Assembly (NCBI GenBank): GCA_027069135.1
Contig: JALXFE010000626.1
Location: 1 to 64,000 of the forward strand
Source: Thermoanaerobaculia bacterium
GTDB taxonomy: Bacteria > Acidobacteriota > Thermoanaerobaculia > Multivoradales > JAHZIX01
Direction of reading: 5' to 3'
DNA length: 64,000 bases
A program made the position numbers and the translations under genes. The notes beneath the pieces were generated by a model that made no database searches, had not been told where the DNA came from, and saw only the letters and a program-made list of their open reading frames with translations. Below are positions 3,214 through 21,690 of this stretch, piece by piece. How positions within the stretch are numbered: position 1 is the first letter of the stretch; each line of letters starts with the position of its first letter.

Positions 3214-3317
3214 GGCCACCTCAGGGAGCTTCGTCAGCGGCGTCAAGGCTGACCCGGAGGCTTTTGGTGGCGGCTTCTCGAGCCGTGTTTTTTCGATTGT
3301 CGGCCTTCGCCCGGCTG

Positions 3318-4446
3318 GCGGTGAGTACGACGCGCAGACCCTGCTGCCGGTAGCCACCGGCACCGAGCACATGGATGCGGCGGTGGCTACGGGCCAAGAC
3401 ATCGATTTCGACGGTCAGGACGACGACTACCCTCTCCCGGATTCGGTGGCGGCGTCTTTGCGGGGCAGATAAGGGTTTATCGTGACCCAAAGCCTCCAGG
3501 GCCTGCTCAATTGGGGTGTTCCGCTTTTCAGGCTGCGGAAGATCAGGCCAACGTGGCCAACGCGTCGGTGGCGGTGGTCGCGCACCTCGCCGGCAGCCCG
3601 GCGGGATTTTGGCTGGATTTCAGCGGTGCTTCCTCCCTCTACCGGGAGGAGCCCGGGGGGGCGACCTTCACCCGAGCCGAGCTCTTGGCGCTGATGACCC
3701 AGAACCGGGACCAGATGACGGTGATTTCGACTCCCCTGGGCAGCGAGCGTCGGGTAGCGGCTCCCAGCGGCGTCGCGACGGTGCCCACGGGGCCGGTGCC
3801 TTCCGGCTTGCAGCTGATGCCCATGGTGCCCAATACCGCCTACACGGATATTCCCGCCCTGACTCTCCTGTGGGAGTTGGGTGGGGATCCGGCCCATAAC
3901 GGCACGCTGGGCCATACGGTACGCCTGTACCAAAACGCCTTACTCACCGACGGGCCCGCCGGCGCCTATGGTCTGTGCTCGATTCGCCATGAGGCCTCCC
4001 GGCGTTTTCGGGTCGCGGGCCAGAATATTCGCCACGGGGCGACCCTGCGGCTCTTCATCCAAAACGATCCCCTGGCCGGGCCCCCGATCACTGCTCTTCC
4101 CATAGATGACCCGGGCCAGGTCGCCACCCTGGAGCTCGAGCTTCCGATCTACCCGACGGACATCGTCCTGGCGAACACGGCGCGGGTCTGGGAGACCGCC
4201 GTGGAGTTGGAGCCGCAGTTTTTCTACCGCCTCATGGCGGGGCGGCCCAATGCCTTCCCGGGGGTCATCGACAAGGTCACGGATCTGGATTTTCTGTTCC
4301 AGATCGTTCCTGAGGCCCAGCCCGTGGGCAGCTGGTCACCGCCGGCTTGGAATAACCATTGGGTGCGGGTGGTCAACGCCGACGGCACCCAGGGGGACGG
4401 CGGCTGGCAGCTCCTGACCCTCGAGCCGGGCCCCGACTGCCCTTGA
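3318..4446 (+). pseudogene. Decayed copy of the beta-propeller/dihaem cytochrome gene
   Basis: Three blocks match the intact paralogues downstream. 3318-3426 encodes GEYDAQTLLPVATGTE and corresponds to about 5061-5169. 3440-3525 encodes KGFIVTQSLQGLLNWGVP once an extra T near 3470 is removed. 3528-4446 corresponds to the C-terminal 305 or so residues. The stretches between blocks, including both haem motifs, are deleted, and the joins shift frame. Block three is closer to the second intact copy (for example AFQAAEDQA and VWETAVELEP) than to the first. The final block still forms an open frame of about 311 aa, but without signal peptide or haem sites it is unlikely to work. Confidence 0.88.
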
Positions 4447-4484
4447 GGCGGGCCCCAAATCCGAGGATTCTTTTCTCCTAGGGC

Positions 4485-4556
4485 GGAAAAGGGCTCTGCC
4501 TACCTACTCCCTCCTTCTATAGCAGAGTCCGTATTAACTGATTGGAGGGAGGCGCC
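4485..4556 (+). promoter_or_regulatory. Conserved leader upstream of cytochrome copy 1
   Basis: The bases CTACTCCCTCC followed by TCTATAGCAGAGTCCGTAT are shared almost exactly with the region before copy 2 (8082-8154) and in weaker form with 11805-11880. The leader ends in a very strong ribosome site, GGAGGGAGG at 4544-4552. TATAGC may be a -10 element, but I see no good -35. It could be a promoter with operator or a common 5' untranslated region; sequence alone does not decide. Confidence 0.55.
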
Positions 4557-7500
4557 ATGCGCAAGGCTGCGTCGTATGTCTTAGGTTTTGTTTTTCTTCT
4601 GCTGTCCGGGGTTTGTGTCCCGGCGGCAGCCCAGGGCCGTACTGATTATTTCAACGTGGAGAGTCCCCAGGTCCACCCCATCGAGGTGGTCCGCATCGCA
4701 GACCACGATTATCTCCTGGTCACCAACACACCGGATAATTCCGTAGAAGTCTGGGACACGGATGAGACCATCCTGCCCGCCGGCAATCGCTTCATCACCC
4801 GCGTACCGGTGGGCTTGGAGCCGGTGTCGGTGCGTTGGGTACCCACTCTTTCCCGCTTTTTCGTCGCCAATTTCCTCGGCGACAGCATCACGGAAGTCTT
4901 CCTCGGCGCCGAGACCGGCCCCGCATCCTTGACGGCCATCGTCATCAAGACGGTCCAGGTGACGGACGAGCCTTTGGATATGACCTTCGTCGCCGCCGGT
5001 GGTGCGCCGGGGATCACCGAACACACCCTCTTCGTTACCCATATGACCCTCGATGCCTATGGCGAGTACAACGCCCAGACCCTGTTGCCGGTGGCCGCTG
5101 GCACCGAGAGGATGGACGCCGTGGTAGCGACGGGGCTCGATATCGACTTCGATACCCAACTGGACGATATCGCCGTCAAGCAGCCCCGGACCCTGGCCTT
5201 GGCCTGCGACAAGCTGTTCATCCTCGGCTTTCTGGGGGGGAATACGATTCGCTACGACTTCGATCTCTACACCCAGGATCTGGCCACGGGCACGACGACG
5301 AGTCTCGGCGGCCTGGGTTCCACGAATTGGAATTTTGAGTTTGTGGACGACAACAACCTCTTCATCACCGGAGCCGAGGCCTTGAACGCGAGCCTGGTCG
5401 GCGAGCCGGCGGTGAAGGGTGCTAAGTCAGGTTTCGTCAAGACCATGTTCTATTGGGTGCAGAACCCCTGCTCCGCCAACCCGACGATCAAGAAGCGGGA
5501 CGTCAACCTGGTGCCCGGTATCTTTCAGATTCCCGGGGATCCTCTTCCCTTACCGATTTCATCTCGGGGCCTGAACGCTGCCGGCCAACGGGCCGTCGCC
5601 GTGCCGGTTCCCGCCACCAAGGCCGTCAATAAGGGCCAGGCGCTGGTGCAGCTCACGGATCTCGAAGCGATGACCGACGACACCGGCACCGTGACCAAGG
5701 TCTATGTTGCCGCCTTCGGTAGCGACCGGGTCGGTATCATTGAGCCCAAGGCGGGTCAGGCCCCCATCAACTGGAAGCGCAGCCGGATCAACATCAATCC
5801 GGTGGGGAGTCCCACGGGGAGCTTCGTCGGGCCTCGGGGTCTGGCCCTCAAGGGGGCTATTCTGGGGAGCGATACCGATCCCGGCGCGCGTCTCTACGTC
5901 GTCAATCGGGGCGAGAATTCGGTCTCCGTCATCGATCCGGGCACGGATGCCGTGGTCGATGGCTTCCTCCTCGACAACAACCCGACCCCGGCCTTCATCA
6001 CTGACGGGCGGAGGTTTCTCTACAGCGCTCGACTCTCCGGCAACGGCTTCGACGCCTGCGGCAGCTGCCATATGGACGCCCGCACGGACGGCCTGGCCTG
6101 GAATCTGAGTGACGGTGTCGACACCACCATCCCGCCGGAGCTCCTTCCCCTGCCGGGCGCCTTCAACGGCGGGTTCTTGAGCGGACAGAAGGGCTTTATC
6201 GTCACCCAATCCCTTCAGGGTCTCCTCAATTGGGGGGTTCCCCGTTCGATCCAGCATCTCTTCAGCAATGCCCCCTACCATTGGCGAGGGGACAAAGAGA
6301 GCTTTCAGAGCTTCAACGGTGCCTTCGCCTCGTTGCTGGGCGGCAACGAGCTCATTACCGCAGATATTGAGGCCTACGAGGAGTTCGTCAATACCGTTCA
6401 CTACCCGCCCAACCCAAAGCAGTCACGGCAGCGGACCCTTTCCGGAGACCTGGGTGATCCGGACGAGAACGACCCCACGGTCACCATCAGCGGCTCCGGG
6501 GCGCTGTTGGGGCTGAAGATCTTCCACACGGTGAACTCCGACGGTTTTTCCTGCGCCGGGTGTCACTCCCTGGCGGAGGGCAGCGACAATGTGTTGACGG
6601 AGTTCATTGCGGGGGTTGACGCCCATCCCCTCCCAACTCCGCCCTTCACCAACGCTCCGGGACAACCCATCGAAACAGCGGCCCTACGAGGTCTCTTCCA
6701 AAAAGAGGCACGCCTCGACCGGGATGGTTTTTCGATCCATGACAACTCGCCCATCACCGGCTACGAGGGGTTGTTCCACACCGGACTGACCTCGCCCCGG
6801 ATTAACGCGTCGTTGGATTTCAACGGCACGGCGACCCTCAACGCCTTCAACGCTCGTTTCTTCTCGTCGACGGTATGTGCCGGGCCGGGACCGGCGATCT
6901 GCGCGAACCTCCAGGCGTTGAATCAATTCCTTCACGAATACGACTTCGGCTCGTCGCCGATGATCGGCCGCAGCCACACCACCACCCGGGCCACTGCCGG
7001 CTCGGCGGCCACAGCAGCGGCCTTCCAGGAGATCGAGGACGAGGCCTTCGTGGCCAACGCCTCGGTGGCGGTGATCGCCCGGTTGAGCGGCAGCGCCACG
7101 GGCTTTTGGTTGGATTTCAGCGGGCCTGCACCCCTATACCGAGAGGAACCCGGTGGCGCTACGTTTACCCGGGCCGGCCTTTTGGCCTTGATGACCAACG
7201 CCCGGGACCAGATGACGGTCATCTCGACGCCCCTGGGTAGCGAGCGGCGGGTGGCGGCTCCCAGCGGTGTAGCTTCGGTCCCGGCAGGGCTTGCCCCCTC
7301 CAATCTGAAGCTGATGCCCATGGTGACCAACACCGCCTATACCGATGTGCCCGCTCTCTCAAAATTTTGGGACAACGGCGCGCCGGGCTTCGGGTTCACC
7401 CGTGCCCACACGGTTCGCCTGTACCAGAACGCCCTGCTCATCGACGGTCCTCCGAGCGGCTTCGGCCTGTGCTCGATTCGCCACCAGGCCCCTCGGCGGA

Positions 7501-7937
7501 TTCGCATCGCCGGCCTGAACATCCGCCACGGAGCGACGTTGAGGCTTTTCATCCACGATGATCCGGGTATCCTGCCTCCCTTCACCAATCTGCGGGTCGA
7601 TGATCCCGGGCAGGTGCAGACTCTGGAGCTCGAGTTGCCGATCCACCCCACGGATATCCTGGTGGGGGAGAATCGGGTTTGGGAGACCCATGTGGAGCTC
7701 GGCCCCAAGATCTATGACCATCTCATGGTGGGACGGCCCAACGGCTTCCCGGGGATCCTCGACAATCCCGAAGATCTGGACTTCCTCTACCAGGGCGTTC
7801 CGGAGGCACTTCCCGTCGGGAGCTGGTCGCCGACGGCCTGGAACAACCATTGGGTGCGGGTGGTCAACGCCGACGGCACTCAAGGGGATGGCGGCTGGCA
7901 GCCGCTGACCATCGAGCCGGGTCCGGATTGTCCCTGA
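4557..7937 (+). CDS. Secreted beta-propeller / dihaem cytochrome c protein, copy 1
   Basis: A 1126-aa exported protein. The ATG at 4557 is chosen over an in-frame TTG at 4542 because GGAGGGAGG lies directly before it. A signal peptide (residues 1-26, ending AAAQG) is followed by a YVTN-like beta-propeller (about 30-500) with repeats such as NTPDNSVEVWDTDETI and NRGENSVSVIDPGTDAVVDG. Two haem c sites follow: CGSCH at 501-505 and CAGCH at 666-670, with LNWGVPRSIQHLFSNAPYHWRGD between them as in dihaem peroxidase-like or MauG-like cytochromes. The last 300 residues are a family-specific domain ending EPGPDCP. Expected role is periplasmic or surface electron transfer or oxidation; the substrate is unknown. 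It is roughly three-quarters identical to copy 2. Confidence 0.88.
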   Translation: MRKAASYVLGFVFLLLSGVCVPAAAQGRTDYFNVESPQVHPIEVVRIADHDYLLVTNTPDNSVEVWDTDETILPAGNRFITRVPVGLEPVSVRWVPTLSRFFVANFLGDSITEVFLGAETGPASLTAIVIKTVQVTDEPLDMTFVAAGGAPGITEHTLFVTHMTLDAYGEYNAQTLLPVAAGTERMDAVVATGLDIDFDTQLDDIAVKQPRTLALACDKLFILGFLGGNTIRYDFDLYTQDLATGTTTSLGGLGSTNWNFEFVDDNNLFITGAEALNASLVGEPAVKGAKSGFVKTMFYWVQNPCSANPTIKKRDVNLVPGIFQIPGDPLPLPISSRGLNAAGQRAVAVPVPATKAVNKGQALVQLTDLEAMTDDTGTVTKVYVAAFGSDRVGIIEPKAGQAPINWKRSRININPVGSPTGSFVGPRGLALKGAILGSDTDPGARLYVVNRGENSVSVIDPGTDAVVDGFLLDNNPTPAFITDGRRFLYSARLSGNGFDACGSCHMDARTDGLAWNLSDGVDTTIPPELLPLPGAFNGGFLSGQKGFIVTQSLQGLLNWGVPRSIQHLFSNAPYHWRGDKESFQSFNGAFASLLGGNELITADIEAYEEFVNTVHYPPNPKQSRQRTLSGDLGDPDENDPTVTISGSGALLGLKIFHTVNSDGFSCAGCHSLAEGSDNVLTEFIAGVDAHPLPTPPFTNAPGQPIETAALRGLFQKEARLDRDGFSIHDNSPITGYEGLFHTGLTSPRINASLDFNGTATLNAFNARFFSSTVCAGPGPAICANLQALNQFLHEYDFGSSPMIGRSHTTTRATAGSAATAAAFQEIEDEAFVANASVAVIARLSGSATGFWLDFSGPAPLYREEPGGATFTRAGLLALMTNARDQMTVISTPLGSERRVAAPSGVASVPAGLAPSNLKLMPMVTNTAYTDVPALSKFWDNGAPGFGFTRAHTVRLYQNALLIDGPPSGFGLCSIRHQAPRRIRIAGLNIRHGATLRLFIHDDPGILPPFTNLRVDDPGQVQTLELELPIHPTDILVGENRVWETHVELGPKIYDHLMVGRPNGFPGILDNPEDLDFLYQGVPEALPVGSWSPTAWNNHWVRVVNADGTQGDGGWQPLTIEPGPDCP

Positions 7938-7972
7938 GGCATCGGGCTCTCTGGATCTAACGCAACAGCGGC

Positions 7973-8003
7973 GGGGTACCCTAGGCAATGCCGGGGGTAC
8001 CCC
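7973..8003 (+). terminator. Hairpin after cytochrome copy 1
   Basis: GGGGTACCC (7973-7981) pairs perfectly with GGGTACCCC (7995-8003), 36 bases after the stop codon. A following T-run is weak (GTTTGCGGTT), so termination efficiency is uncertain. A related hairpin follows copy 2 at 11720-11748, which supports a shared 3' element. Confidence 0.55.
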
Positions 8004-8081
8004 GTTTGCGGTTCTTCGGTTCGATCTTCGTCCCGAGGGCATCCCCTGAAATTCTTTTCGGCGAATCTTTTCTCCCCAAAG

Positions 8082-8154
8082 AGGACAAGCTCGTCCGCTG
8101 CCTACTCCCTCCCTCTATAGCAGAGTCCGTATCAATCTCTTGGAGGGAGTCGCA
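8082..8154 (+). promoter_or_regulatory. Conserved leader upstream of cytochrome copy 2
   Basis: Same element as at 4485-4556: CTACTCCCTCC, then TCTATAGCAGAGTCCGTAT, then GGAGGGAGT before the ATG. Preservation of the middle block, while surrounding bases differ, suggests a functional signal rather than simple recent duplication. Confidence 0.55.
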
Positions 8155-11100
8155 ATGCGCAGAGCCGTGCCGTGTTTCTTGATCTCAGCGTTCTTCTTGC
8201 TGGCCGGGGTCTCACGGCCCGCCGTCGGCCAAGGCCGAACCGACTATTTCAACGTCGAGAGTCCCCAGGTCCACCCTATCGAGATCGCTCGCATCGGAGG
8301 CCATGACTATCTATTGGTGTGCAATACACCGGACAACTCCGTTGAAATCTGGGACACGGACGAGACCATCGTGCCGGCCGCCAACCGCTTCATCACCCGC
8401 GTTCCGGTGGGCTTGGAGCCGGTGTCGGTGCGCTGGGTCGGGAGTCGGTCCCGGTTCTACGTCGCGAATTTCTTGGGCGACAGTATTTCATCCGTCTTCA
8501 TCAGCGTCCCCAGTGGACCCTCGTCCCTGGCAGCCTTCGTCTTGAAGACGGTCTCGGTGACCGACGAACCGTTGGACATCACCTTTGTCGAAGCCGGGGC
8601 CGCTCCCGGGATCACCGTGCCGACCCTCTTTGTCACCCACATGACTCTGGATGCCTACGGCGAGTACCACGCTCTGACCTTAGCGCCCGTCGCGAGCGGG
8701 TCGGAGCGGATGGACGCTCTGGTCGCCACCGGCAAAGACATCGATTTCGATACTCAACTCGACGATATCGCGCTCAAGCAGCCCCGTACCGCGGCTTTGG
8801 CCTGCGACAAGCTTTTCATCCTGGGGTTCCTGGGAGGCAATACCAAACGCTACGACTTTGATCTCTATTCAGAAGATCTGGCATCCGGAACCACCACGGA
8901 TCTGGGGGGGCTCGGATCCACCAACTGGAATATGGAGTTCGTGGACGACAACAACCTCTTCATCACCGGTGCGAAGGCCCTGAACGCGAGCCTGGTGGGA
9001 GAGCCGGCGGTGGCCGGAGCCCCCACGGGTTTCGTCAAGAGCATGTTCTATTGGGTTCAGAACCCTTGTTCGAACGCCCCCACGATCCTGGGCCGGGATG
9101 TGAATCTCATTCCCAACCTTCAGCAGGTACCCGGCGAGACTCTTCCGGCCCCGATCTCGTCTCGGGGCTTCGAGGCTGCGGGGCAGGCGGCGGTGGCCGT
9201 TCCGGTTCCTACCACCAAGCCGGTCAAGAAGGGGCAGGCCTTGGTGCAGCTGACGGATTTGGAAGCGCTCACCGACGACAGCGGCACGCTTCAAAAGGTT
9301 TTCTTTACCGCCTACGGCAGTGATCGGGTGGGAATCATCGTGCCGCAAGCCGGCCAGAGCCCGATCAATTGGCCACGCCGGAAGATCAACATCAATCCGG
9401 TGGCGGCCCCGGCGGGGTCCTTCGTCGGGCCCCGGGGCCTGGCTTTGAAAGGAGCCCTTGCCGGCAGTGACACGGATCCGGGAGATCGCCTCTACGTGGT
9501 CAATCGCGGCGAGAACTCCGTGACCATCATCGACCCGTCCGGCGAGACGGTGGTCGATGGCTTCGTTCTCAACAACCACCCAATTCCGAAATTCCTCGGC
9601 GCCGGTCGGAAATTCCTCTATAGCGCCCGACTCTCCGGCAAGGGTTTCGTCGCCTGCGCCAGCTGCCACATGGACGGCCGCACGGACGGGCTCGCTTGGA
9701 ATTTGAGCGATGGGGTCGATGTGACGATTCCCCCGAAGCTTTTACCCTTCCCGGGATTCGCCGGAGGAAAATACAAGGGACAGAAGGGATTCATCGTCAC
9801 CCAATCTCTGCAAGGGTTGCTCAATTGGGGAGTGCCTCCCTCTATCCAGGGGCTTTTCAGTAACGCTCCTTATCATTGGCGTGGGGATCGGGAGACGTTC
9901 TTAAGCTTCAACGGAGCTTTCGCGTCTCTCTTGAAGGGCAATGAGCTCAGCGATCTGGAGATCGCATCCTACGAAGAGTTCGTCAATACAATTCATTATC
10001 CGCCGAACCCGAAGCAACCTAAACAGAGGCTGCTTTCCGGAGTGTTAGGAGATCCGGACGACAACGATCCCACCCAGGACATCGACGGCTCCGGGGCGCT
10101 CCTGGGGCTCAAGATCTACCACACCGTGGACTCCGACGGCTTCTCCTGCGTCGGCTGCCACGCCCTGCCGGAAGGCAGCGATAACGTATTGACGGAGAAC
10201 ATCGCCGGGGTCAACCCACACCCGGTCATCCATCCGCAATTCTTCGCCAACGCACCGAAGCAACCCATGGAGACGGCGGCTCTACGGGGCCTCTTCCAGA
10301 AGGAAGCGAGATTGGATCGGGACGGCTTCTCGATCCATGACAACTCGCCCATCACCGGCTATGAAGGGATGTTGCATACCGGGCTTTCGATCCCCAGGAC
10401 TCAGGTCTCGCTGGACTTCAACGGCACTGCATCTATGAACGCCTTCAACGCTCGCTTTTTCTCGTCGACGGTGTGCGCGGGACCGACCCAGCCGCCGATG
10501 TGCAACAACTTGCAGGCCCTCAACCAATTCATTCATGAGTTCGATTTCGGTTCCTCTCCCATGATCGGCGAGTCGTTGACGTTCACCCAGACCTCGGCGG
10601 GATCCGCGGCGACGGCGGCGGCGTTTCAGGCGGCGGAGGATCAGGCGAGCTTGGCGAATGCCTCAGTGGCGGTGATCGCGCAGCTCAGCGGAGTCGCGAC
10701 GGGTTTCTGGCTGGATTTCAGCGGTACGACGGCCCTCTATCGACAAGAACCGGGTGGCGGTACTTTCACTCGCAGCGCTCTCCTGGGGTTGATCACCAAC
10801 ATCCGGGACCGGATGACCCTTCTGTCGACGCCCCTGGGCAGTGAGATCCGGGTGGCGGCTCCCAGCGGCGTCCCGACGGTCCCCACCGGGCCCGCTCCGT
10901 CCCGTCTGACGCTCTTGCCCATGGTGCCCAACACCGCCCATACGGATATTCCTTCCCTCTCCCTCTTGTGGGATACGGGATCTCCCGGAACCAACGGCAC
11001 CAACGGTCACACGACGCGCCTCTACCAGAATGCTCTCTTGATCGACGGGCCAGCAGGGGGATTCGGTCTCTGCTCGATCCGTCATGAAGCTCCCCGGCGG

Positions 11101-11541
11101 TTTCGGGTCGCGGGGAGAAATATTCGCCATGGGGCGACGCTGCGCCTCTTCATCCAGAATGATGCCGGCTCCGGTCCTCCCATCACGAGTCTTCGGGTCG
11201 ACGACCCCGGTCAGGTACCGACCCTGGAGTTGGAGCTTCCGATCTATCCGACGGGTATTGTCCTGGATGACCCAACGAGGGTTTGGGAGACGGCAGTAGA
11301 GCTGGAACCCATGCTTCTGTACCGCTTGATGACGGGTCGTCCTAACGGCTTCCCGGGGGTCATCGACAACGTCACGGATCTGGATTTTCTGCTCCAGATC
11401 GTGCCGGAAGCTCAGCCCGTGGGCACCTGGTCACCGCTAGCCTGGAATCACCATTGGGTTCGGGTCGTCAACGCGGACGGCACCCAGGCCGATGGCGGCT
11501 GGCAGGTGTTGAGCCTCGAGCCGGGGCCGGACTGCCCCTGA
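8155..11541 (+). CDS. Secreted beta-propeller / dihaem cytochrome c protein, copy 2
   Basis: A 1128-aa paralogue of the preceding gene with the same order of parts: signal peptide ending AVGQG, YVTN-like propeller (about 30-500), haem motifs CASCH (501-505) and CVGCH (665-669), and the long family-specific C-terminal domain ending EPGPDCP. The start is the ATG at 8155, after GGAGGGAG, rather than the in-frame TTG at 8140. No frameshift or missing haem ligand is visible, so both copies look functional. Its own leader and 3' hairpin suggest it is transcribed separately from copy 1. The last 209 bases are repeated at 16107-16315. Confidence 0.88.
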   Translation: MRRAVPCFLISAFFLLAGVSRPAVGQGRTDYFNVESPQVHPIEIARIGGHDYLLVCNTPDNSVEIWDTDETIVPAANRFITRVPVGLEPVSVRWVGSRSRFYVANFLGDSISSVFISVPSGPSSLAAFVLKTVSVTDEPLDITFVEAGAAPGITVPTLFVTHMTLDAYGEYHALTLAPVASGSERMDALVATGKDIDFDTQLDDIALKQPRTAALACDKLFILGFLGGNTKRYDFDLYSEDLASGTTTDLGGLGSTNWNMEFVDDNNLFITGAKALNASLVGEPAVAGAPTGFVKSMFYWVQNPCSNAPTILGRDVNLIPNLQQVPGETLPAPISSRGFEAAGQAAVAVPVPTTKPVKKGQALVQLTDLEALTDDSGTLQKVFFTAYGSDRVGIIVPQAGQSPINWPRRKININPVAAPAGSFVGPRGLALKGALAGSDTDPGDRLYVVNRGENSVTIIDPSGETVVDGFVLNNHPIPKFLGAGRKFLYSARLSGKGFVACASCHMDGRTDGLAWNLSDGVDVTIPPKLLPFPGFAGGKYKGQKGFIVTQSLQGLLNWGVPPSIQGLFSNAPYHWRGDRETFLSFNGAFASLLKGNELSDLEIASYEEFVNTIHYPPNPKQPKQRLLSGVLGDPDDNDPTQDIDGSGALLGLKIYHTVDSDGFSCVGCHALPEGSDNVLTENIAGVNPHPVIHPQFFANAPKQPMETAALRGLFQKEARLDRDGFSIHDNSPITGYEGMLHTGLSIPRTQVSLDFNGTASMNAFNARFFSSTVCAGPTQPPMCNNLQALNQFIHEFDFGSSPMIGESLTFTQTSAGSAATAAAFQAAEDQASLANASVAVIAQLSGVATGFWLDFSGTTALYRQEPGGGTFTRSALLGLITNIRDRMTLLSTPLGSEIRVAAPSGVPTVPTGPAPSRLTLLPMVPNTAHTDIPSLSLLWDTGSPGTNGTNGHTTRLYQNALLIDGPAGGFGLCSIRHEAPRRFRVAGRNIRHGATLRLFIQNDAGSGPPITSLRVDDPGQVPTLELELPIYPTGIVLDDPTRVWETAVELEPMLLYRLMTGRPNGFPGVIDNVTDLDFLLQIVPEAQPVGTWSPLAWNHHWVRVVNADGTQADGGWQVLSLEPGPDCP

Positions 11542-11550
11542 AGCGTGGCA

Positions 11551-11711
11551 AGTGTCCCGATTGGCTAATTCGCGCGAGAAATAGCGAGGTATTTCGGGAC
11601 TCTGGCAAGGCGTGACGACAAGCAATAGCAGAGCTATTGCGCGAGGGAACAACGCAGCTAGAGCCTGAAAGGACCGCATATTCATGCGATGAATTTGTCA
11701 ATCGGGACACT
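11551..11711. repeat. MITE-like element with 13-bp terminal inverted repeats
   Basis: AGTGTCCCGATTG at 11551-11563 is the exact reverse complement of CAATCGGGACACT at 11699-11711. Between them is a compact sequence with an internal hairpin (GCAATAGC 11622-11629 pairing with GCTATTGC 11633-11640) and no meaningful coding frame. Size, perfect ends and hairpin fit a non-autonomous miniature transposable element or REP-derived repeat. It lies between the stop of copy 2 and its 3' hairpin. I see no clear target-site duplication and no other copy in the window. Confidence 0.75.
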
Positions 11712-11719
11712 AGGAGAAA

Positions 11720-11748
11720 GGTTACCCCTGGCGCTGCCGGGGGTAGCC
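11720..11748 (+). terminator. Hairpin belonging to the 3' region of cytochrome copy 2
   Basis: GGTTACCCC (11720-11728) pairs with GGGGTAGCC (11740-11748) with one G-T pair. Loop sequence and position resemble the hairpin after copy 1. It stands 180 bases from the stop because the MITE-like element intervenes. There is no strong T-run. Confidence 0.45.
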
Positions 11749-11804
11749 TCTTGGAGATTTTCCCCTCGATTTTCTTCCCACCGTCGTCCCTCTAGGACCT
11801 CTCT

Positions 11805-11880
11805 TCGACAATTCTCTTCTCCAGAATCGGAAAGGGCCTCTCGCTGCTGCCTCCCTTCCTCTATAGCCTCAGTCCGGACC
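11805..11880 (+). promoter_or_regulatory. Orphan copy of the cytochrome leader
   Basis: The stretch resembles the leaders at 4485 and 8082: TTCTCTTCTCC, GGAAAGGGCCTCT, then CTCCCTTCCTCTATAGC and CAGTCCG. It then diverges, and no cytochrome coding sequence follows. With the orphan 3' end at 16107-16315, it marks where a further family member probably once stood. Confidence 0.55.
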
Positions 11881-12298
11881 TAAGGCGCCCAGAATGGGTC
11901 CAGGCCCCCCGGCTCACCGTAAAGGACTGTCCAAGTCCTGCGAAGTTCAGACCGAATTGGTCTGGCGGCGAGATTTCTGGTGGGGTTTGAAACGGGTCAT
12001 CGAGCCACTCCTTCAATTCTTAACCGTCGAACCCCCTCCTCGATACACGTAGCTGTGGTAGTATGGGTACCTATGGTTATTGCGAATTTTCATAAAATAC
12101 GCGGGTGGCGATTCTATCTCCTGGTCGGTTCGACCTCCGCATGCATCCAACCCCGAGCGCTTTCGGAGCTCCGGCGGGGAAAAGTCGAAGTCGAGAATTC
12201 ATTCTTGACAGGAGTGTGAAAAATCAAGTCCCACGTACGACTTTCTGGTTGAAGGGTGTTCCAAACGCCCTGAGCTATCGAAACGAAAGGAGAAGCCA
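11881..12298. other. Non-coding stretch before the Cys-rich protein gene
   Basis: I see no supported gene here; short open frames have no ribosome site. The region is relatively AT-rich compared with its neighbours. A TTGACA at about 12206 might be a -35 element, but a matching -10 is unclear. AAAGGAG at 12286-12292 is the ribosome site for the next gene. Confidence 0.4.
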
Positions 12299-12739
12299 AT
12301 GCTTCGATCCCCAAGAAAGGGCAGACTGTTTGTGAGTTCCTGCTGGCTGCTGCTTGTCGCCTTGGTAGTCCTGGTTCAGCCAACGGCGAAGGCCGCAGAA
12401 GCGGTGGACGAGAGCATGGAAAAGTTCGAGGGTGGAGATGAGTCTTCGTTCTACGGCGGCGGGGCTGTGCAAGACTGTACGGACTTGGTCTGTGACACGG
12501 TCGTCTATAGTGGCGAGTCCTGTTCAGATTGCAACGGGTGCGATGGGGCTCACGCGGCTTCCTGGTCAACTACAGATGTTGATTTTGGCAGCGACGGCAA
12601 CTATGTCGAGGGCTTGGTGGGTTGCATGGATTACGGTAGTGCTCGAGAGTTTGGATTCTATAGATGTCAGGCTGACAGCTCGGGGGCCTCGTGCAAAGAC
12701 TGCGGCAGTTGCTGGTGGGTCAATGAGTGGTGCCCATAG
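12299..12739 (+). CDS. Small secreted Cys-rich protein with two CxxCxxC motifs
   Basis: A 146-aa protein with a Sec signal peptide (basic residues, then a hydrophobic segment at about 10-30, cleavage near AKAAEA). The mature part is acidic, Gly/Ser/Asp-rich and holds 11 Cys residues. Two related motifs, SCSDCNGC (about residues 79-86) and SCKDCGSC (about 131-138), lie about 52 residues apart and suggest disulfide or metal binding; neither is a haem CxxCH site. The start has a good ribosome site. It stands 27 bases upstream of the 1110-aa repeat protein gene and is probably cotranscribed. I do not recognise the family. Confidence 0.78.
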   Translation: MLRSPRKGRLFVSSCWLLLVALVVLVQPTAKAAEAVDESMEKFEGGDESSFYGGGAVQDCTDLVCDTVVYSGESCSDCNGCDGAHAASWSTTDVDFGSDGNYVEGLVGCMDYGSAREFGFYRCQADSSGASCKDCGSCWWVNEWCP

Positions 12740-12766
12740 ACGGTTGCCGGGGGGAGAGCTCTCGCC

Positions 12767-15700
12767 ATGAAAAAGGCGCCGGTGAATCTGATTCCTGGCG
12801 GAGGATTCGCCCGGGTAGTTCTGTGCATCCTGGCGGCAGGCCTCTCTTCCGCTAACACCAAGGCAGGAACGTTTCCCCGGGAGGCCGTCTCCATCTCTAT
12901 CCGGGGTCGGGTTCTGAACCAAGACTCTCAACCCCAGCGGGGAGCCGAGGTCCAGCTGAGTGCCCTTCGCAGCTCCTATTCAACCTGGGTGGACGAACCA
13001 TCCCCGGAGCCGGCGGATACCGTCGGCACCGCCGTTGATGGAGGCTTCGAGATCCGGGTTCCAAAGATGGGTCTTTGGCTCGTTCGCGTCCGTGCGGCCG
13101 GTTACCAGGCCCAGACGTTTCTGCTGCTGGCCTTATTGGAGGATCGATCGCTTCCACCCGTGACTCTCCGGAAGGTCAGGGTGGTTCGAGTTCAGGTTCT
13201 GGATCCGAGGGGAATGCCGGTGGACGGGGCCTGGGTGTTGCCGCCGCCGACCGGAGAATCGGCGTCGCGATACGGTCCGGATTCGTGGCGGCCCGAGGAA
13301 CCCCGCCAGCGGACAGATCATCGCGGAGAGGCGTGGGTGCCTGTGCCGAGGGGAAGCGAAACGGGGGCGCTCTGGACCGTGGAGCATCCCGCATTCACGA
13401 CCATGCCCCTCGAATTGGCTGAAGACTTCGTGTCGATCCGACTCACCCCCGAGGTGCAGTCTCCGGGCGAGGTCCAACTCATCACGGGCCCTACCGGGAC
13501 ACCCTGGACTGCTGGTGCCCTCATCATCCAAGTGGGGAGGCGGGTTCCCGTCGCCCTGGTTCCTGAAAGCGGACATGCCAAGATCCCGAACATTGAACGG
13601 GACCGTCCCCAGCTTCAATTCCTCTCCGCCGCCGGCGGGCGGCCAGCGTTGCTGCGCATGGCACCGGGGGAACGAGAAGGGACCTACCGGGCCCAACTCC
13701 CGAAGCCCTCGGCGGTACACGGCCAGGTCGTCGATGCCGAGACAGAAAAGGGAATTCCAGGAGTCTTCGTCTGGCTCGAAGACGACCCCGGTGTCTCTAC
13801 GAGAAGCGATCAGGAGGGTTTTTTTGCTCTCCCGCGACCCCTCGCCTCGCACCTTCGCATCGGTCTGGACTCGGAGGGCTACCAGCCGAGCTTCCAATCC
13901 ATCGTGTCGAGACCGGGCCGGCCTGCGGTGATGAAGCTCCGGCCCGCCGGAAGGCTGATCGTGGCCGTGAAGGATGAGGCCGGGCGGGCGGTATCTGAAA
14001 TCGAACCCCGCCTTCGCCTCCTCCCCTGGGGTGGTCCAGCCGGGCCGGGCGCCCAGCCGCGTTTCCGCTCGAATTTCTCTTCCGACCTCGGGGAGCTCAC
14101 CCTCCGGAAGCTGCTCCCGATGACAAGCCACGAGCTGACCGTCCGAGCTCCGGGGTACACGACCGGGGTGTACCGCTGGACCGCCCAGGCAGGGGCGGGC
14201 CCGCGAGCCGTCTTGACCCTCGAGCCGGAGCACAGGTTGAAGGGAGCTGTCGTGACCCTCAAAGGGGATCCCATCCCCCGGGCAGAGGTTGTCGTGATTC
14301 CATCGGTGGGAGCGGCGCGGCGGCGTAAAGCGGCTCTGGGCACCTCCTTTCCGGCTTCCGTTCTGGCCTCGGAGGAGACCGGGCGCGATGGGGGCTTCGA
14401 GATCGGCGAGCTTCCCCGAGGCCCCTTCGACCTGATCGTCCGGAAGAGAGGCTTTGGCCCTGGAGTGGTGGCCGGGATCTCTTTCGACCCCGGGATTCGG
14501 GGCAGAACCCTCGACTTGATTCACCTCTCCCCGACGATCGAGATGCACGGGCGGGTGGTGAGCGACGCAGGAGATGGTGTCGAAGGGGCCAGGGTCTTCG
14601 TGGTGTACCGGGTGGATCGACCCGGAGGAGGTGGCAGCGAAGTGCCCCGAGGGCGAGGCCGGCCCGCGGACATCACCGACACCGAGGGAGGATTTTCACT
14701 CTCGGACTTGGAGGAGGGTGCCTCGTTCACTCTGGGTGTCTGGAAGGAGGGCTTCGTACCGAAAAAGGTCGAGAGCATGATCCCTTCCTCTGGCGAAACA
14801 CTTCGGGTGCAGCTATCAGCCGGCGCAAAGCTCGAGGGGACAGTCCTCGACCATCTCGGCTCGCCCCTGTCGGGAGCGAAGGTGGAGATCTCCAAGGCAG
14901 GAGGTCTCTCCGGCACGCGATTGGTAACCCTCTACGGTTCGCGCCCTGGGGCCACCACCAGCGCGGACGGGCGGTTCGAGATGTCTGGCCTCCTCTCGGG
15001 ACCGGCCGTCGTCGTGGTACGGGCCAAGGGTCATGGGCGGAAGGTCCTCCGCGACCTGCGCCTGACCGCTGAGCATGGCCTGAACATATCGGTGCAACTT
15101 CGAGCGGGCCTTCAGATCCGAGGAATCGCCCTCGGAGATGACGGGCACCCGGTGGCGGGGGCTGTGGTCCAGAGTGGCGGCGAGCGAACACACACGGATG
15201 TAGAAGGGCGATTCGAACTCGACGGCTTCCCGGAGGGCGGGGCCCGTATCGTGGCCTTGCATCCCACTCATGGAGCCGCACAGAAGTTCGTGAACCCGGG
15301 GGCGGGTGAACGGGACGTAGAGCTGATCTTTCGGCCCTCGGCGTCGGTTGGCGGGGTTGTCCTCGATTACCGCCGCCAACCCGTGGCAGGCGCAGAGGTC
15401 TGGCTTGATACGGGCCTCGGTGCGCCCTCGCGGCAAATTGCGGGTTCCACGGGAGAGTTCTTGTTCGAGAATATCCCGGTGGTCCCTTCCTGGGTGCTGC
15501 GCGCCCGAGGAGCCGATTCCGCCTTCGTCGAGAAGAAGTTCCGACCGGAAACAGGTCCTGGCCTCGAAGTAACCCTCATTCTGGGGGCCACGTGCCGCGT
15601 TCGCGGCAAAGTGTATCCGGTGGGATCCTCGGAGGCGGTGGAGATCTTCGCCAACACCCCTGGCGGCGCGACCCTCGAGGGGATCGTTCTGAACGGTAGT

Positions 15701-16099
15701 GAATATCTCGTCGAAGGACTTAGCGAAGGCACCTGGCTGGTGGTGGCCAGGAGCGAGGGAGGATTGCGAGGAGAGGCGAGAGTCGAGTGCGACGGCAAGA
15801 ACGGTGAGATTCGGAGGGATCTGGAGCTTGGAGAGGGTGAGGCACTCGCCATTGTCGCCCTCTTCCAAGGTGCACCGCTAGCGGGCGCATCCGTGAAGGT
15901 CGAAAACGATGCGGGTTTTGTGGTCGGCGGCGGCCGCACGGATCGACGAGGAACCTTTCTGGCTTCAGGATTGCCTCCCGGGCGTTACCAAGTGAAGGTG
16001 CGATCGCCGGACAGAACCCTCCTGACGGAGTCGGCGACGACTCTGCCCGGGTCCGGGCGGCTCGAGCTGGTGCTTCGCCGAGACCCAGGACCCCGGTAG
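12767..16099 (+). CDS. Secreted protein of repeated carboxypeptidase-regulatory-like domains
   Basis: A 1110-aa exported protein. After a signal peptide (about residues 1-35) it consists of roughly a dozen beta-sandwich repeats of the CarboxypepD_reg type, each with the pattern G.V.D..G.P..GA.V....G....T...G.F....L..G. Examples are VLDHLGSPLSGAKVEIS, ALGDDGHPVAGAVVQSG and VLDYRRQPVAGAEVWLD. No catalytic domain, membrane anchor or sorting tail is evident, so it is likely a surface or extracellular scaffold. Ribosome site GGGGGGAG precedes the ATG. It follows the Cys-rich protein gene closely, and its stop lies 7 bases before the orphan cytochrome 3' end. Confidence 0.85.
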   Translation: MKKAPVNLIPGGGFARVVLCILAAGLSSANTKAGTFPREAVSISIRGRVLNQDSQPQRGAEVQLSALRSSYSTWVDEPSPEPADTVGTAVDGGFEIRVPKMGLWLVRVRAAGYQAQTFLLLALLEDRSLPPVTLRKVRVVRVQVLDPRGMPVDGAWVLPPPTGESASRYGPDSWRPEEPRQRTDHRGEAWVPVPRGSETGALWTVEHPAFTTMPLELAEDFVSIRLTPEVQSPGEVQLITGPTGTPWTAGALIIQVGRRVPVALVPESGHAKIPNIERDRPQLQFLSAAGGRPALLRMAPGEREGTYRAQLPKPSAVHGQVVDAETEKGIPGVFVWLEDDPGVSTRSDQEGFFALPRPLASHLRIGLDSEGYQPSFQSIVSRPGRPAVMKLRPAGRLIVAVKDEAGRAVSEIEPRLRLLPWGGPAGPGAQPRFRSNFSSDLGELTLRKLLPMTSHELTVRAPGYTTGVYRWTAQAGAGPRAVLTLEPEHRLKGAVVTLKGDPIPRAEVVVIPSVGAARRRKAALGTSFPASVLASEETGRDGGFEIGELPRGPFDLIVRKRGFGPGVVAGISFDPGIRGRTLDLIHLSPTIEMHGRVVSDAGDGVEGARVFVVYRVDRPGGGGSEVPRGRGRPADITDTEGGFSLSDLEEGASFTLGVWKEGFVPKKVESMIPSSGETLRVQLSAGAKLEGTVLDHLGSPLSGAKVEISKAGGLSGTRLVTLYGSRPGATTSADGRFEMSGLLSGPAVVVVRAKGHGRKVLRDLRLTAEHGLNISVQLRAGLQIRGIALGDDGHPVAGAVVQSGGERTHTDVEGRFELDGFPEGGARIVALHPTHGAAQKFVNPGAGERDVELIFRPSASVGGVVLDYRRQPVAGAEVWLDTGLGAPSRQIAGSTGEFLFENIPVVPSWVLRARGADSAFVEKKFRPETGPGLEVTLILGATCRVRGKVYPVGSSEAVEIFANTPGGATLEGIVLNGSEYLVEGLSEGTWLVVARSEGGLRGEARVECDGKNGEIRRDLELGEGEALAIVALFQGAPLAGASVKVENDAGFVVGGGRTDRRGTFLASGLPPGRYQVKVRSPDRTLLTESATTLPGSGRLELVLRRDPGPR

Positions 16100-16106
16100 C
16101 GGCCTC

Positions 16107-16315
16107 CGGGTCGTCCGAGCGGCTTCCCGGGGGTCATCGACAACGTCACGGATCTGGATTTTCTGCTCCAGGTCGTGCCGGAAGCTCAGCCCGTGGGCAC
16201 CTGGTCACCGCTGGCCTGGAATCACCATTGGGTTCGGGTCGTCAACGCGGACGGCACCCAGGCCGATGGCGGCTGGCAGGTGTTGAGCCTCGAGTCGGGG
16301 CCGGACTGCCCGTAG
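16107..16315 (+). pseudogene. Orphan 3' end of a cytochrome-family gene
   Basis: These 209 bases match 11333-11541, the last 69 codons of cytochrome copy 2, with about eight differences by eye. The frame is open and ends in a stop (TAG instead of TGA) after GPDCP. It begins seven bases after the stop of the 1110-aa protein gene. No start codon or signal peptide belongs to it. The near identity means it was copied from copy 2, or gene-converted with it, recently compared with the copy 1/copy 2 split. Confidence 0.9.
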
Positions 16316-16340
16316 GTTCCTCGCTCTGAGGATTTTTCTC

Positions 16341-16393
16341 AAACGGCCGGCTACCGGATCTCTTTAAGGATTCGGTAGCCGGCCGTTTTTTTT
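16341..16393 (+). terminator. Strong rho-independent terminator
   Basis: A 16-bp perfect stem (16341-16356 with 16373-16388, starting AAACGGCCGGCTACCG) with a 16-base loop is followed by eight T residues (16386-16393). It sits between the plus-strand orphan cytochrome end and the converging acylase gene, so it can stop transcription from the left. The opposite direction has only three T residues but the same stem, so it may act both ways. Confidence 0.92.
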
Positions 16394-16427: not shown

Positions 16428-19313
16428 TCAGTCTGCCGGAGTAAAGGTTTGTGCCGTTAGTCGGTTGGCCCGCACCGCTTCGGATCTGAGCAGCATCGGA
16501 TGGTAGCTGTTGGTCAACCATAGGTGGAGCTGGTCCGCTTGAAACGGGCTTCCCGGGAAGGCGCTCTGGCCGCCGGGGATCACCTGGAAGGCCTCGGTGG
16601 TGCGATGGTCGATCTGACCGACGAACCGGCGATTGGGGCCGGACCCGAACATGAATCCGTTGACGGTGGAAGCCCGGGTGCTATGGGACGATGCGTCGAC
16701 GACCTGGAATCCGCCGCTGCGAGGAATGCCCGGAAGATCCGGCGACAAGCTCGAGAATCCACCTCCCTCGGGAATGCTAAAGGGGCCGCCCAGAGGGCTG
16801 TCGAAGACGATGCGGTGGAGATACCCCCAGCGGTAGTCGTCCTGATCTGTGGAGCCTCCATAGGCTGGAGCGAAGGTGTCAGAAGCCAGAAGATCGAGGG
16901 TGTCTCGGAGGCTTTGGAGGATGGTGAGATCCCGACCCGCGGCGGGATCTGCGCTATCCGGAGCCAAGGCCAGGAGGCGAGCCCCGGAGGCGCCGACGCC
17001 TTCGTTTTGATCGAAAGCCTGGAGCAGGTGGACAACCGCGGACCAGGACTGGACGCTGCCCGGGGCGAAGTCCCCGAGACCGACCGCTGCGAGAAAGGCG
17101 TCTACCGAGTTGGCGAGCATGCGGCCCCGCCAGGTGCTGTAGATCGTCGCCGCGACGCTCGAGGCGATCTCGGCTGCGTCCGGTTCCAAGAGATTGCTCG
17201 GGTCATCCCCCGGGTCATATCCCTGGGCTAAGCCCGTCGGGGTTGCGTAGTCCCAGCCCCGGAGACGATTCACCGCTTCGGCGATCTCCGGGTCACCGGC
17301 AAAGGCGGACAAGGATCCGGGGGCCCCGGCGGCCGCAGAGTTATCAAAAGCCTGGGTAATGAAGGGGACAACCAACTCGGCGTCCAGCAGCTGGTTATTG
17401 CCCTGGAACCGCTTCATATCGTCCATAGAGATCTTCCCGCCGTCCGTCAACGCGTCTTCGATGAGGCGACGGATGCGGCCGGCTCGGAGGCTGGAGTATC
17501 CGGGACTCAGGTAATAAAGACCTCCTCCGGGCCGAAGTTGATTTAAGGGGTTGTTGTCCAGAGTCGTCCCCACGGGATCGTTGTTGGCGTTGAGGATGTA
17601 GCCGGATTCCGGGTTGACGGATTGAGGCATTTCCGAGAACGGCAGGATCTCGAAATCGAGCGCTTGATGGGGCTGTGGTTGGCTCACCGGCAGCCATTCG
17701 TTGGCGAAGGTCCCGGAGCCGTCTCGAATCAGATAGGGGGGAGTGCCGTCGGGCTGATTGAGATTCTGGAGGTCTTCTCGGATCGGCATTTCGGCGCTGG
17801 TGAAGTAGGCGATATTGCCCGCCACGTCCGCAACGCCCCAATTCTGGGAACCGACATCGAAGTCCTGCAGGGCTTCGGCGAACTCCCGGATATTGGTGGC
17901 CCGCCACCAGCGGCGGAAGCATTCCAATTCACGGGTGCTGCGCCAACCGGTGTATTGGACGGAAAGGGCCGTGACCGTGGGGGCGGCACTGGCATCGATG
18001 GCGACGATGGGGCCGTTGTTGCGCCGGGGCACCACGAAGGTGAGTCCGCCGTCCGCCGGGCCGATATTCGCCGTCGCCAGATTGTCCGCAACGCCATCAC
18101 CGACCTGATTGGTGCGGTATACCTGGGGGATGACGACCAGGGGCTCCGCCTCACCTTTATAGATCGTGTGGGTCGGCAGGCCGGTCGTCGGGTCGACGAC
18201 GAGAATTTCCTGGTAGACGTCGGTGACGTCCATGGGATTGACTGTAGAACCCCAGCAGATCGAGGAGTTGCAGCCCTGGGCCAGGGCCGGAGCTCCGGGA
18301 AAACTGACACCGTTGGCGTTGAGAACCCGATGGCGATCCGGATCGAAGACCAGGATATGCACCTCATAGAAGGTGGATGGGCTATCCAAGGCCAGATGAG
18401 GGTCGTTGGCCAGCATCGGCAGACCGGAGGCTGAGTTGTCACCCCCTACCAACCACCAATTGCTCCCGCGATCGACGTCGCTGGAGTTCAAGGTCCAGGC
18501 GAGACTGGGGATCTGGGCGATGCGATCCCGGTAGCTGCGGGCGAGCTCCAGGGCCTCCGGGCGGATGACCTTCTGTACGCGGCGAGCCGTGGCCAAGAGG
18601 GAGCTCGCAGCCTCGATAGCCTGGGGATCGCCGCCACCGGGCGTTGTGGGAATGGAGACGGTGGGGTCCATGGGCGCAGACCGGAAGAGATCCTCGAAGA
18701 AAAGTGCGGTGCCGTCGAACCCGGCGGCGCCGCCAGCGGTCTGGTAAGCGACCAGAGCGATGGTGCGCTCGATATCGTCTAAATCGAAGGAGAGACCGAA
18801 GGCGAGCCCTTTGCCAGCGACGAGACTGTCCACCGGAGTCCACTTCGGAATCGAGGAGCGGGTCAGCTCGAGGGCGCCATATTGGGGGGGCAGAGGTCGG
18901 GTTTCGAGGTAGGCGTTGACGCCGTCGGCGTAGGCTTGCAGCCAGACGGCGGTCTGTCGCGAAGACGTCGCCCAGGTTTCTTCCGCCGCTCGGCGCAGGC
19001 CGAGGGTCCGCAATTGCACGTCCGTGGGTAGCGCCCCGGGACCGAGGAGCTCCGCGAGCTGACCGCTGAAGAGGCGGCGCAGGCTGTCCATCTGGAAGAG
19101 ACGATCCTGGGCGTGGACGTACCCGATCATGAAGCTGGCGTCGAGATCGTTGCGGGCGTAGATGTGGGGTATTCCTTGGAAATCCCTAACAACCCGGGTC
19201 TCTTCCCGCAGCCCCGCCAAGGAAGCAGCTTCTACGCAGAAGAATGAAGGCTGAGCTGAAGCGACCGCGAAGATGGCGGCGATGATCACAAAGCTACGGC
19301 AGTGCCGGAACAT
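16428..19313 (-). CDS. Penicillin acylase family (Ntn hydrolase) protein, exported
   Basis: A 961-aa member of the S45 penicillin/acyl-homoserine-lactone acylase family, which hydrolyses amides after self-cleavage into two chains. The start at 19313 is preferred because AAGGAGGG precedes it, and the protein then begins with a signal peptide (MFRHCRSFVIIAAIFAVA). The propeptide has TRVVRDFQGIPHIYARN and YVHAQDRLFQMD, both typical of the family. The cleavage site is RG|SNWW, making Ser284 the new N-terminal nucleophile. The beta chain has the expected NDPHL and WGSTVNPMDVTDVY. Substrates may be beta-lactams, acyl-homoserine lactones or other amides; the sequence does not say which. It is transcribed away from the lasso locus. 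Confidence 0.93.
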   Translation of the reverse strand: MFRHCRSFVIIAAIFAVASAQPSFFCVEAASLAGLREETRVVRDFQGIPHIYARNDLDASFMIGYVHAQDRLFQMDSLRRLFSGQLAELLGPGALPTDVQLRTLGLRRAAEETWATSSRQTAVWLQAYADGVNAYLETRPLPPQYGALELTRSSIPKWTPVDSLVAGKGLAFGLSFDLDDIERTIALVAYQTAGGAAGFDGTALFFEDLFRSAPMDPTVSIPTTPGGGDPQAIEAASSLLATARRVQKVIRPEALELARSYRDRIAQIPSLAWTLNSSDVDRGSNWWLVGGDNSASGLPMLANDPHLALDSPSTFYEVHILVFDPDRHRVLNANGVSFPGAPALAQGCNSSICWGSTVNPMDVTDVYQEILVVDPTTGLPTHTIYKGEAEPLVVIPQVYRTNQVGDGVADNLATANIGPADGGLTFVVPRRNNGPIVAIDASAAPTVTALSVQYTGWRSTRELECFRRWWRATNIREFAEALQDFDVGSQNWGVADVAGNIAYFTSAEMPIREDLQNLNQPDGTPPYLIRDGSGTFANEWLPVSQPQPHQALDFEILPFSEMPQSVNPESGYILNANNDPVGTTLDNNPLNQLRPGGGLYYLSPGYSSLRAGRIRRLIEDALTDGGKISMDDMKRFQGNNQLLDAELVVPFITQAFDNSAAAGAPGSLSAFAGDPEIAEAVNRLRGWDYATPTGLAQGYDPGDDPSNLLEPDAAEIASSVAATIYSTWRGRMLANSVDAFLAAVGLGDFAPGSVQSWSAVVHLLQAFDQNEGVGASGARLLALAPDSADPAAGRDLTILQSLRDTLDLLASDTFAPAYGGSTDQDDYRWGYLHRIVFDSPLGGPFSIPEGGGFSSLSPDLPGIPRSGGFQVVDASSHSTRASTVNGFMFGSGPNRRFVGQIDHRTTEAFQVIPGGQSAFPGSPFQADQLHLWLTNSYHPMLLRSEAVRANRLTAQTFTPAD

Positions 19314-19609
19314 CCTGGAACCCTCCTTGTGAAAGCTTGCCGGGTTCACGTTCCCGGCCAGCAATTGAAGATCGATGTCTGTCTAGTGTACATCTTTAGT
19401 TGAAGTACTGAGGGTCCGGCCAGTCTGAGTAGGGGATTCTGTAGGGAGAATCCTGATAAGGATTCAGGCCGGAGACCTACACGAAGCTGAGCTTAAGTCC
19501 GGTTTGAGGTGCCGGTTGGAGCTGTTTATAGTGTCGCCAAGGAGAATTGGAGTTTGGCGAAGGAAGGTCCTCTGCGCGGACATGACGTGAACCGGCCCGG
19601 AGCCTCGCC
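19314..19609. other. Divergent promoter region between acylase and lasso cyclase
   Basis: A 296-base gap between two divergent genes, presumably holding both promoters. I see no convincing -35/-10 pair, operator palindrome or small gene. A missing lasso-pathway gene (RRE or protease) is not hidden here: no frame of suitable length exists. Confidence 0.45.
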
Positions 19610-21514: not shown

Positions 21515-21690
21515 AGACCCAAGGACAGCTACCCGCGCCGGAGAATGCGAGCGCGCCGGAAGAGCCTACCTCCCGGCGCCGAGACTACGCACCACCGGTT
21601 CTTCGGGAGTACGGCGACCTCCGGACCTTGACCCTGGGCCCGTCTCCCGGCCTGGGCGAGAGTGGGAATCCCGCAGTGTTCCGGGCTTAA
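21511..21690 (+). CDS. Lasso peptide precursor (A protein)
   Basis: A 59-aa peptide whose ATG overlaps the cyclase stop. The leader has the lasso consensus Y..P.L...G.....T: YAPPVLREYGDLRTLTL at residues 26-42, with Thr41 at the penultimate leader position. Cleavage after Leu42 would release a 17-residue core, GPSPGLGESGNPAVFRA (bases 21637-21687). Gly1 supplies the amine and Glu8 the side-chain acid, giving an eight-residue ring and a nine-residue tail. A longer in-frame start at 21433 lies inside the cyclase gene and is less likely. The order cyclase then precursor is the reverse of the common A-B-C arrangement. Confidence 0.85.
   Translation: MKTQGQLPAPENASAPEEPTSRRRDYAPPVLREYGDLRTLTLGPSPGLGESGNPAVFRA

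Follow-up and report, generated by a model that had tools for sequence, protein, structure and literature searches.

Birth-and-death evolution of tandem paralogues, accompanied by interlocus gene conversion, is a general process, as set out in the portions of a review consulted here (PMC3924818). Antigen variation fed from silent cassettes is represented by vlsE, pilE/pilS and Anaplasma msp2 (sections of a mini-review, PMC4534519). The locus described here lies in a 64,000-nucleotide stretch, called the window (bases 1-64000 of contig C626), of a draft Thermoanaerobaculia assembly (7.17 Mb, 626 contigs). Positions 3311-16315 of this window are taken up by a tandem family whose long protein products combine a YVTN-type beta-propeller part with a pair of CxxCH motifs. 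At the right end of this array a family leader and a family 3' end enclose two unrelated genes. A third family member very probably once stood at this place, to judge by what is left of it. The reading that we hold with moderate confidence is one of birth and death within the tandem family: the third copy would have lost its body, a two-gene unit would have replaced it, and the neighbouring copy 2 would have overwritten its 3' end. A literature search, narrow in scope, yielded no description of this family or arrangement.

Results

The array contains two intact members on the forward strand, copy 1 (4542..7937, 1131 residues, a beta-propeller with two CxxCH motifs) and copy 2 (8140..11541, 1133 residues), which are 76% identical as proteins. 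Decayed paralogues accompany them: a remnant at the left edge, termed copy 0 (3311..4446, forward strand), an orphan leader and an orphan 3' end. The Cys-rich protein gene (12299..12739) and the gene for a repeat protein (12767..16099), both on the forward strand, lie between the two orphan parts, as a first-pass annotation of this DNA had described. The leader that it had placed at 11805-11880 proved real, with a similarity longer than claimed (11719-11876). In a protein search of the same genome, copy 0 consisted of pieces matching copy 2 residues 171-218, 536-567 and 824-1133; its C-terminal part of 310 residues is still an open frame and its N-terminal part is mostly gone.

The orphan 3' end (16106..16315, forward strand) comprises the terminal 69 codons of a family member, including a final codon and stop of its own. 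Positions 16107-16311 align without gaps to 11333..11537 of copy 2, on the same strand, with 200 of 205 positions identical (97.6%). Over the full 69 codons to the end the identity is 96.6%, which bears out the figure of about 96% given earlier. Identity to copy 0 (4238-4442) is 85% and to copy 1 (7730-7933) 78%. Copies 1 and 2 themselves share 76% of nucleotides over the last 69 codons and are thus, as had also been claimed, much less alike than the orphan end and copy 2.

Four-fold degenerate sites in these 69 codons set the orphan end and copy 2 apart from every other pair. They differ at 3 of 38 such sites; the counts are 12/32 for copies 0 and 1, 13/33 for copies 0 and 2, 14/30 for copies 1 and 2, and 13/32 and 15/29 for the orphan end against copies 0 and 1, respectively. 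The identity of the tract therefore exceeds what protein constraint explains, and the likeness is recent; constraint as the cause of the 97.6% identity is excluded. Also excluded is a random duplicate scattered in the genome, which the first-pass annotation had named as an observation that would speak against its proposal, since outside the array the genome contains a single 48-nt match to the orphan end, in a distant paralogue. Detached C-terminal pieces of the family are 2 of the 18 C-terminal matches in eight genomes, both at the edges of this array, a count that sets apart one more match, located in a 566-residue open frame on a fragmentary contig (G003:C633).

The final codon and stop read CCG TAG in the orphan end and CCC TGA in copy 2. 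As the two differ and still encode proline followed by a stop, the very last bases of the gene and the terminator were probably part of a separate copy. Two terminator-like hairpins follow on the same strand (16318..16388, with the hairpins at 16318-16332 and 16341-16388). That homology stops at the gene end, next to a stop codon of its own, fits a third copy already in place, its tail overwritten as far as the homology reached.

The second remnant (11719..11876, forward strand), which would represent the lost copy 3's spacer and leader, consists of a stable hairpin followed by a promoter-like stretch common to the leaders of copies 1 and 2. Against the spacer between copies 1 and 2 (7973-8129) it reached a local alignment score of 55, whereas the best of 500 dinucleotide-shuffled sequences reached 24; against the spacer between copies 0 and 1 the score was 29 and the shuffle maximum 19. 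By blastn the orphan leader gave 69.5% identity over 151 nt (E about 1e-6). The predicted hairpin energy was −27.3 kcal/mol, that of its counterpart in the spacer between copies 1 and 2 −32.5 kcal/mol. The promoter-like stretch, ending in CTCTATAG, is closely alike in the copy 1 and copy 2 leaders. With an identity of about 70%, the orphan leader is old. Set against the 97.6% of the 3' end, this indicates that leader and 3' end differ in age and do not come from one recent duplication.

What lengthens the stretch between copy 2 and the orphan leader is an inserted 157-bp repeat element resembling a miniature inverted-repeat transposable element (MITE; 11553..11709, no strand assigned). Its ends are TGTCCCGATTG and CAATCGGGACA, with CTAG on the right and CAAG on the left of this insertion. 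At least 39 other copies of at least 123 nt occur in the genome (40 of 65 candidates were scored), and in the aligned copies CTAG flanks the right side in 20 of 20 and the left side in 17 of 20. Such a target would presumably suit an IS5-type parent. No copy of the element was found in the compared stretches of G001, the only other genome of the genus in a comparison with one genome per species.

The two genes that occupy the place of the body are preceded by a 5' region (11877..12298, forward strand) of 53% G+C in which no similarity to the cytochrome family was found. The Cys-rich protein has 146 residues, a hydrophobic N-terminal stretch and 12 cysteines; it had no match in Pfam or NCBIfam, and a search of the PDB with its profile returned one chance-level match (E 0.14). 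The large protein consists of 1110 residues of CarboxypepD_reg repeats, and a PDB sequence search with it gave no match. Neither gene showed similarity to the cytochromes. From the domain type and the signal-like N-termini, the pair plausibly encodes secreted or surface proteins.

The Cys-rich gene is single in its own genome, and the protein is present in 2 of 72 genomes of the order, this one included. The other is G001, where the two genes are likewise adjacent (178 and 1192 residues; the small proteins are 27% identical to each other and the large ones 35-36%). There the pair sits at a different locus, beside a mutase-type gene, and no cytochrome match was found around it within the 19.9 kb read. 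Its occurrence at another locus free of cytochrome sequence makes the pair an independent unit. As to whether the pair moved away from that location, the ortholog of one of its G001 neighbours in our genome (the 1153-residue mutase-type protein, 79-80% identity) is followed by another gene in the remaining 1.2 kb of its contig; the second neighbour was not found in our genome.

The pairing of a small with a large gene recurs in the order, with differing small proteins: of 20 loci examined (L038-L057), five had a small secreted-type open reading frame with at least six cysteines directly 5' of a similar large CarboxypepD_reg gene. At three of the 20 loci the available upstream sequence was shorter than 700 nt. 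The five loci with this arrangement are L038, L039 (equal to L058:8352-12534), L040, L046 and L053, and Cys-Pro forms the C-terminus in four of their small proteins.

A recent transfer recognizable by foreign base composition was not supported, because the third-position G+C of the pair (0.63 and 0.72) is near that of its neighbours (0.70-0.79). The 418 nt ahead of the pair are richer in A+T, as upstream regions often are. No conserved promoter emerged from comparing the upstream region of the pair here with that in G001 (no match below E 0.18), and Rfam returned 0 matches for window positions 1-26000.

The junctions themselves were searched for traces of an insertion mechanism. Regions 11860-11959 and 16060-16124 have no stretch of 8-12 nt in common, either direct or inverted, and neither the two insert genes nor the scanned flanking genes encode an integrase or recombinase, except for an ISL3 transposase outside the array. 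On these two results an integrase-type cassette is rejected. We found no donor carrying the pair between cytochrome ends, no silent donor library and no sign of repeated exchange. The ISL3-family transposase lies at the contig edge (1-1510, gene 175-1407), in a region bearing a 140-nt direct repeat (1-140 and 1371-1510, 97%).

The slot can be located in G001 by a syntenic anchor, a penicillin amidase gene (16428..19364, reverse strand; 66% identical in G001). There too the amidase adjoins members of this family, in the form of a tandem pair with about 65% identity. The 2.5 kb between array and amidase hold a hydrolase-like and an iron-sulfur-type gene in opposite direction (L059:10785-12879), names that come from reading the sequences and not from family searches. 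A third copy, an orphan end and the Cys-rich/repeat pair are all absent from this slot. The G001 insert looks specific to that genome, as its iron-sulfur-type protein had only weak partial matches (27-32%) in five of six other genomes searched and none in the sixth. In G002, G003 and G008 the amidase is on contigs lacking cytochrome matches. Beyond the amidase in our window, an asparagine-synthase-like protein related to lasso cyclases is followed by an open reading frame with a lasso leader motif (NF033521); this region (19610-21690) is possibly a lasso peptide cluster.

As to the family itself, all nine aligned members, which come from five genomes, carry the heme motifs C506-C509-H510 and C670-C673-H674 unchanged. 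The propeller repeats passed the NCBIfam cut-off (TIGR02276). The Pfam MauG model PF03150 gave 22.4 bits for copy 1, under its cut-off of 25.6, and no match for copy 2, so that the label 'cytochrome' is mainly motif-based. A PDB sequence search with copy 2 found no relative, and a contig search with it found one 42% relative in a Planctomycetota metagenome-assembled genome. Two further members occur in the same genome (G000:C5:1546-4794 and G000:C216:16885-20098). The latter is broken across two frames. Near each of the two members is a copy of the MITE-like element.

Discussion

The presence of a third member is argued from the remains: spacer and leader on one side and the last 69 codons with their own stop on the other survive in order, with the body between them replaced. 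In the course of events that we favour, a third copy once followed copy 2 and had a hairpin spacer, a promoter and a terminator of its own. The coding body of this third copy would have been lost and the space filled by the autonomous unit of Cys-rich and CarboxypepD_reg genes, the old promoter region staying behind upstream and the last 69 codons with the terminator downstream. Copy 2 would then have rewritten the leftover 3' end by homologous recombination, i.e. gene conversion, either after the replacement or just before it. The conversion tract would reach from the junction with the newcomers, its left limit, to the stop codon, at which homology runs out. Transcription of the pair would now start at the old promoter and stop at the old terminator. 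We infer both the order of these events and conversion in preference to a fresh duplication.

Several observations weigh against this account. No compared genome has a full third copy in the slot, G001 having two copies and other genes; at only about 65% identity, G001 is too distant to reveal what immediately preceded the event. The leader upstream of the G001 array resembles the orphan leader only weakly (2 of 500 shuffles reached the score), and the other G001 array leader does not resemble it (428 of 500). The stop codon supports the account without proving it, as a stop would be found there by chance at about 3/64, or about 1 in 20. Finally, no unconverted copy-3 sequence persists on the left side of the orphan end, so that by sequence alone conversion and a fresh 205-nt duplication are inseparable.

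Such a duplication is the alternative that survives best, and we nevertheless regard it as unlikely. The 205 nt at 16107 would be a recent ectopic copy of the copy 2 end, made by template switching or end-joining while the pair was placed, and no earlier copy-3 tail would have existed. The abrupt start of the copy 2 match, 8 nt past the stop of the repeat protein and with no family-like sequence to its left, is what such an event would leave. Copying, however, must then have halted by chance inside the last codon, running into an in-frame end of a proline codon, a stop and terminators, and the old leader would still require a third copy.

The first-pass annotation had proposed a replacement inside the tandem family with the shared ends serving as recombination arms. 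The replacement of a third member's body by unrelated genes is upheld by our analysis. The recombination arms are not: the pair in G001 lacks cytochrome ends, the leader is older than the 3' end, no match of at least 8 nt is common to the two junctions, and no donor was found. The annotation had suggested looking in related genomes for a full third cytochrome or another cargo in the same place, and had taken an ancestral pair free of cytochrome ends as evidence against itself. In G001 the slot holds other genes and no third cytochrome, and a pair without cytochrome ends is found at another locus, which is half of that counter-evidence.

A wider form of this idea would make the locus an expression slot, in which the cytochrome promoter on one side and the 3' end with terminator on the other stay fixed and unrelated units for secreted proteins are exchanged between them, recombination keeping the shared ends alike. 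If it were true, conversion by copy 2 would preserve enough likeness in the 3' arm for exchange to continue. Unrelated genes do fill the interval between array and amidase in both genomes of the genus, and the 3' end was recently homogenised. Nevertheless, the G001 slot genes run the opposite way and have no cytochrome ends, the pair elsewhere in G001 has none either, leader and 3' end are of unequal age, and a single cargo was seen. We consider this version highly improbable.

We give as little credence to a single-crossover insertion of a circular molecule carrying the pair together with a copy 2 3' end. It would have left the direct repeat that does flank the insert (205 nt, 97.6%, starting at 11333 and 16107, spaced 4774 nt), and recombination between the repeats would restore copy 2 beside the terminator. 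The circle, however, must also have brought the old spacer and leader, whose order suits a resident third copy, and neither insert gene is an integrase or plasmid gene. A false join at the repeated 3' end of this 626-contig draft is hardly credible: the longest exact run between the two ends (81 nt, counted on the alignment) could mislead a short-k assembly, but five internal differences and unlike last codons distinguish the ends, joining the contig the other way would produce a closed 4.8-kb circle and not a second linear path, and the penicillin amidase neighbourhood agrees with G001.

Read as birth and death with conversion, the locus offers a well-kept snapshot of a tandem family losing a member, in which promoter region and tail outlast the body, the slot is taken by unrelated genes and a neighbour is still able to rewrite the leftover tail. 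It also carries a warning, that near-identical gene ends need not signal a recently duplicated gene. Otherwise its significance is local.

Compared with known systems, the array family shares two CxxCH motifs with the MauG/MbnH-type di-heme proteins (PF03150, TIGR04039), whereas its proteins score under the MauG and MbnH model cut-offs. With the silent-cassette systems, as those sections of the mini-review describe them, the locus has recombination among related copies in common; here, however, the middle consists of two unrelated genes and not of a homologous allele drawn from silent copies. The likeness to birth-and-death evolution with conversion, as presented in the cited portions of the review, extends to tandem paralogues, decayed edge members and a short near-identical tract between diverged copies. 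What differs is that conversion here covers no more than a 3' stub, the remainder of a copy in which unrelated genes have replaced the body. The arrangement is thus unusual in detail and ordinary in kind.
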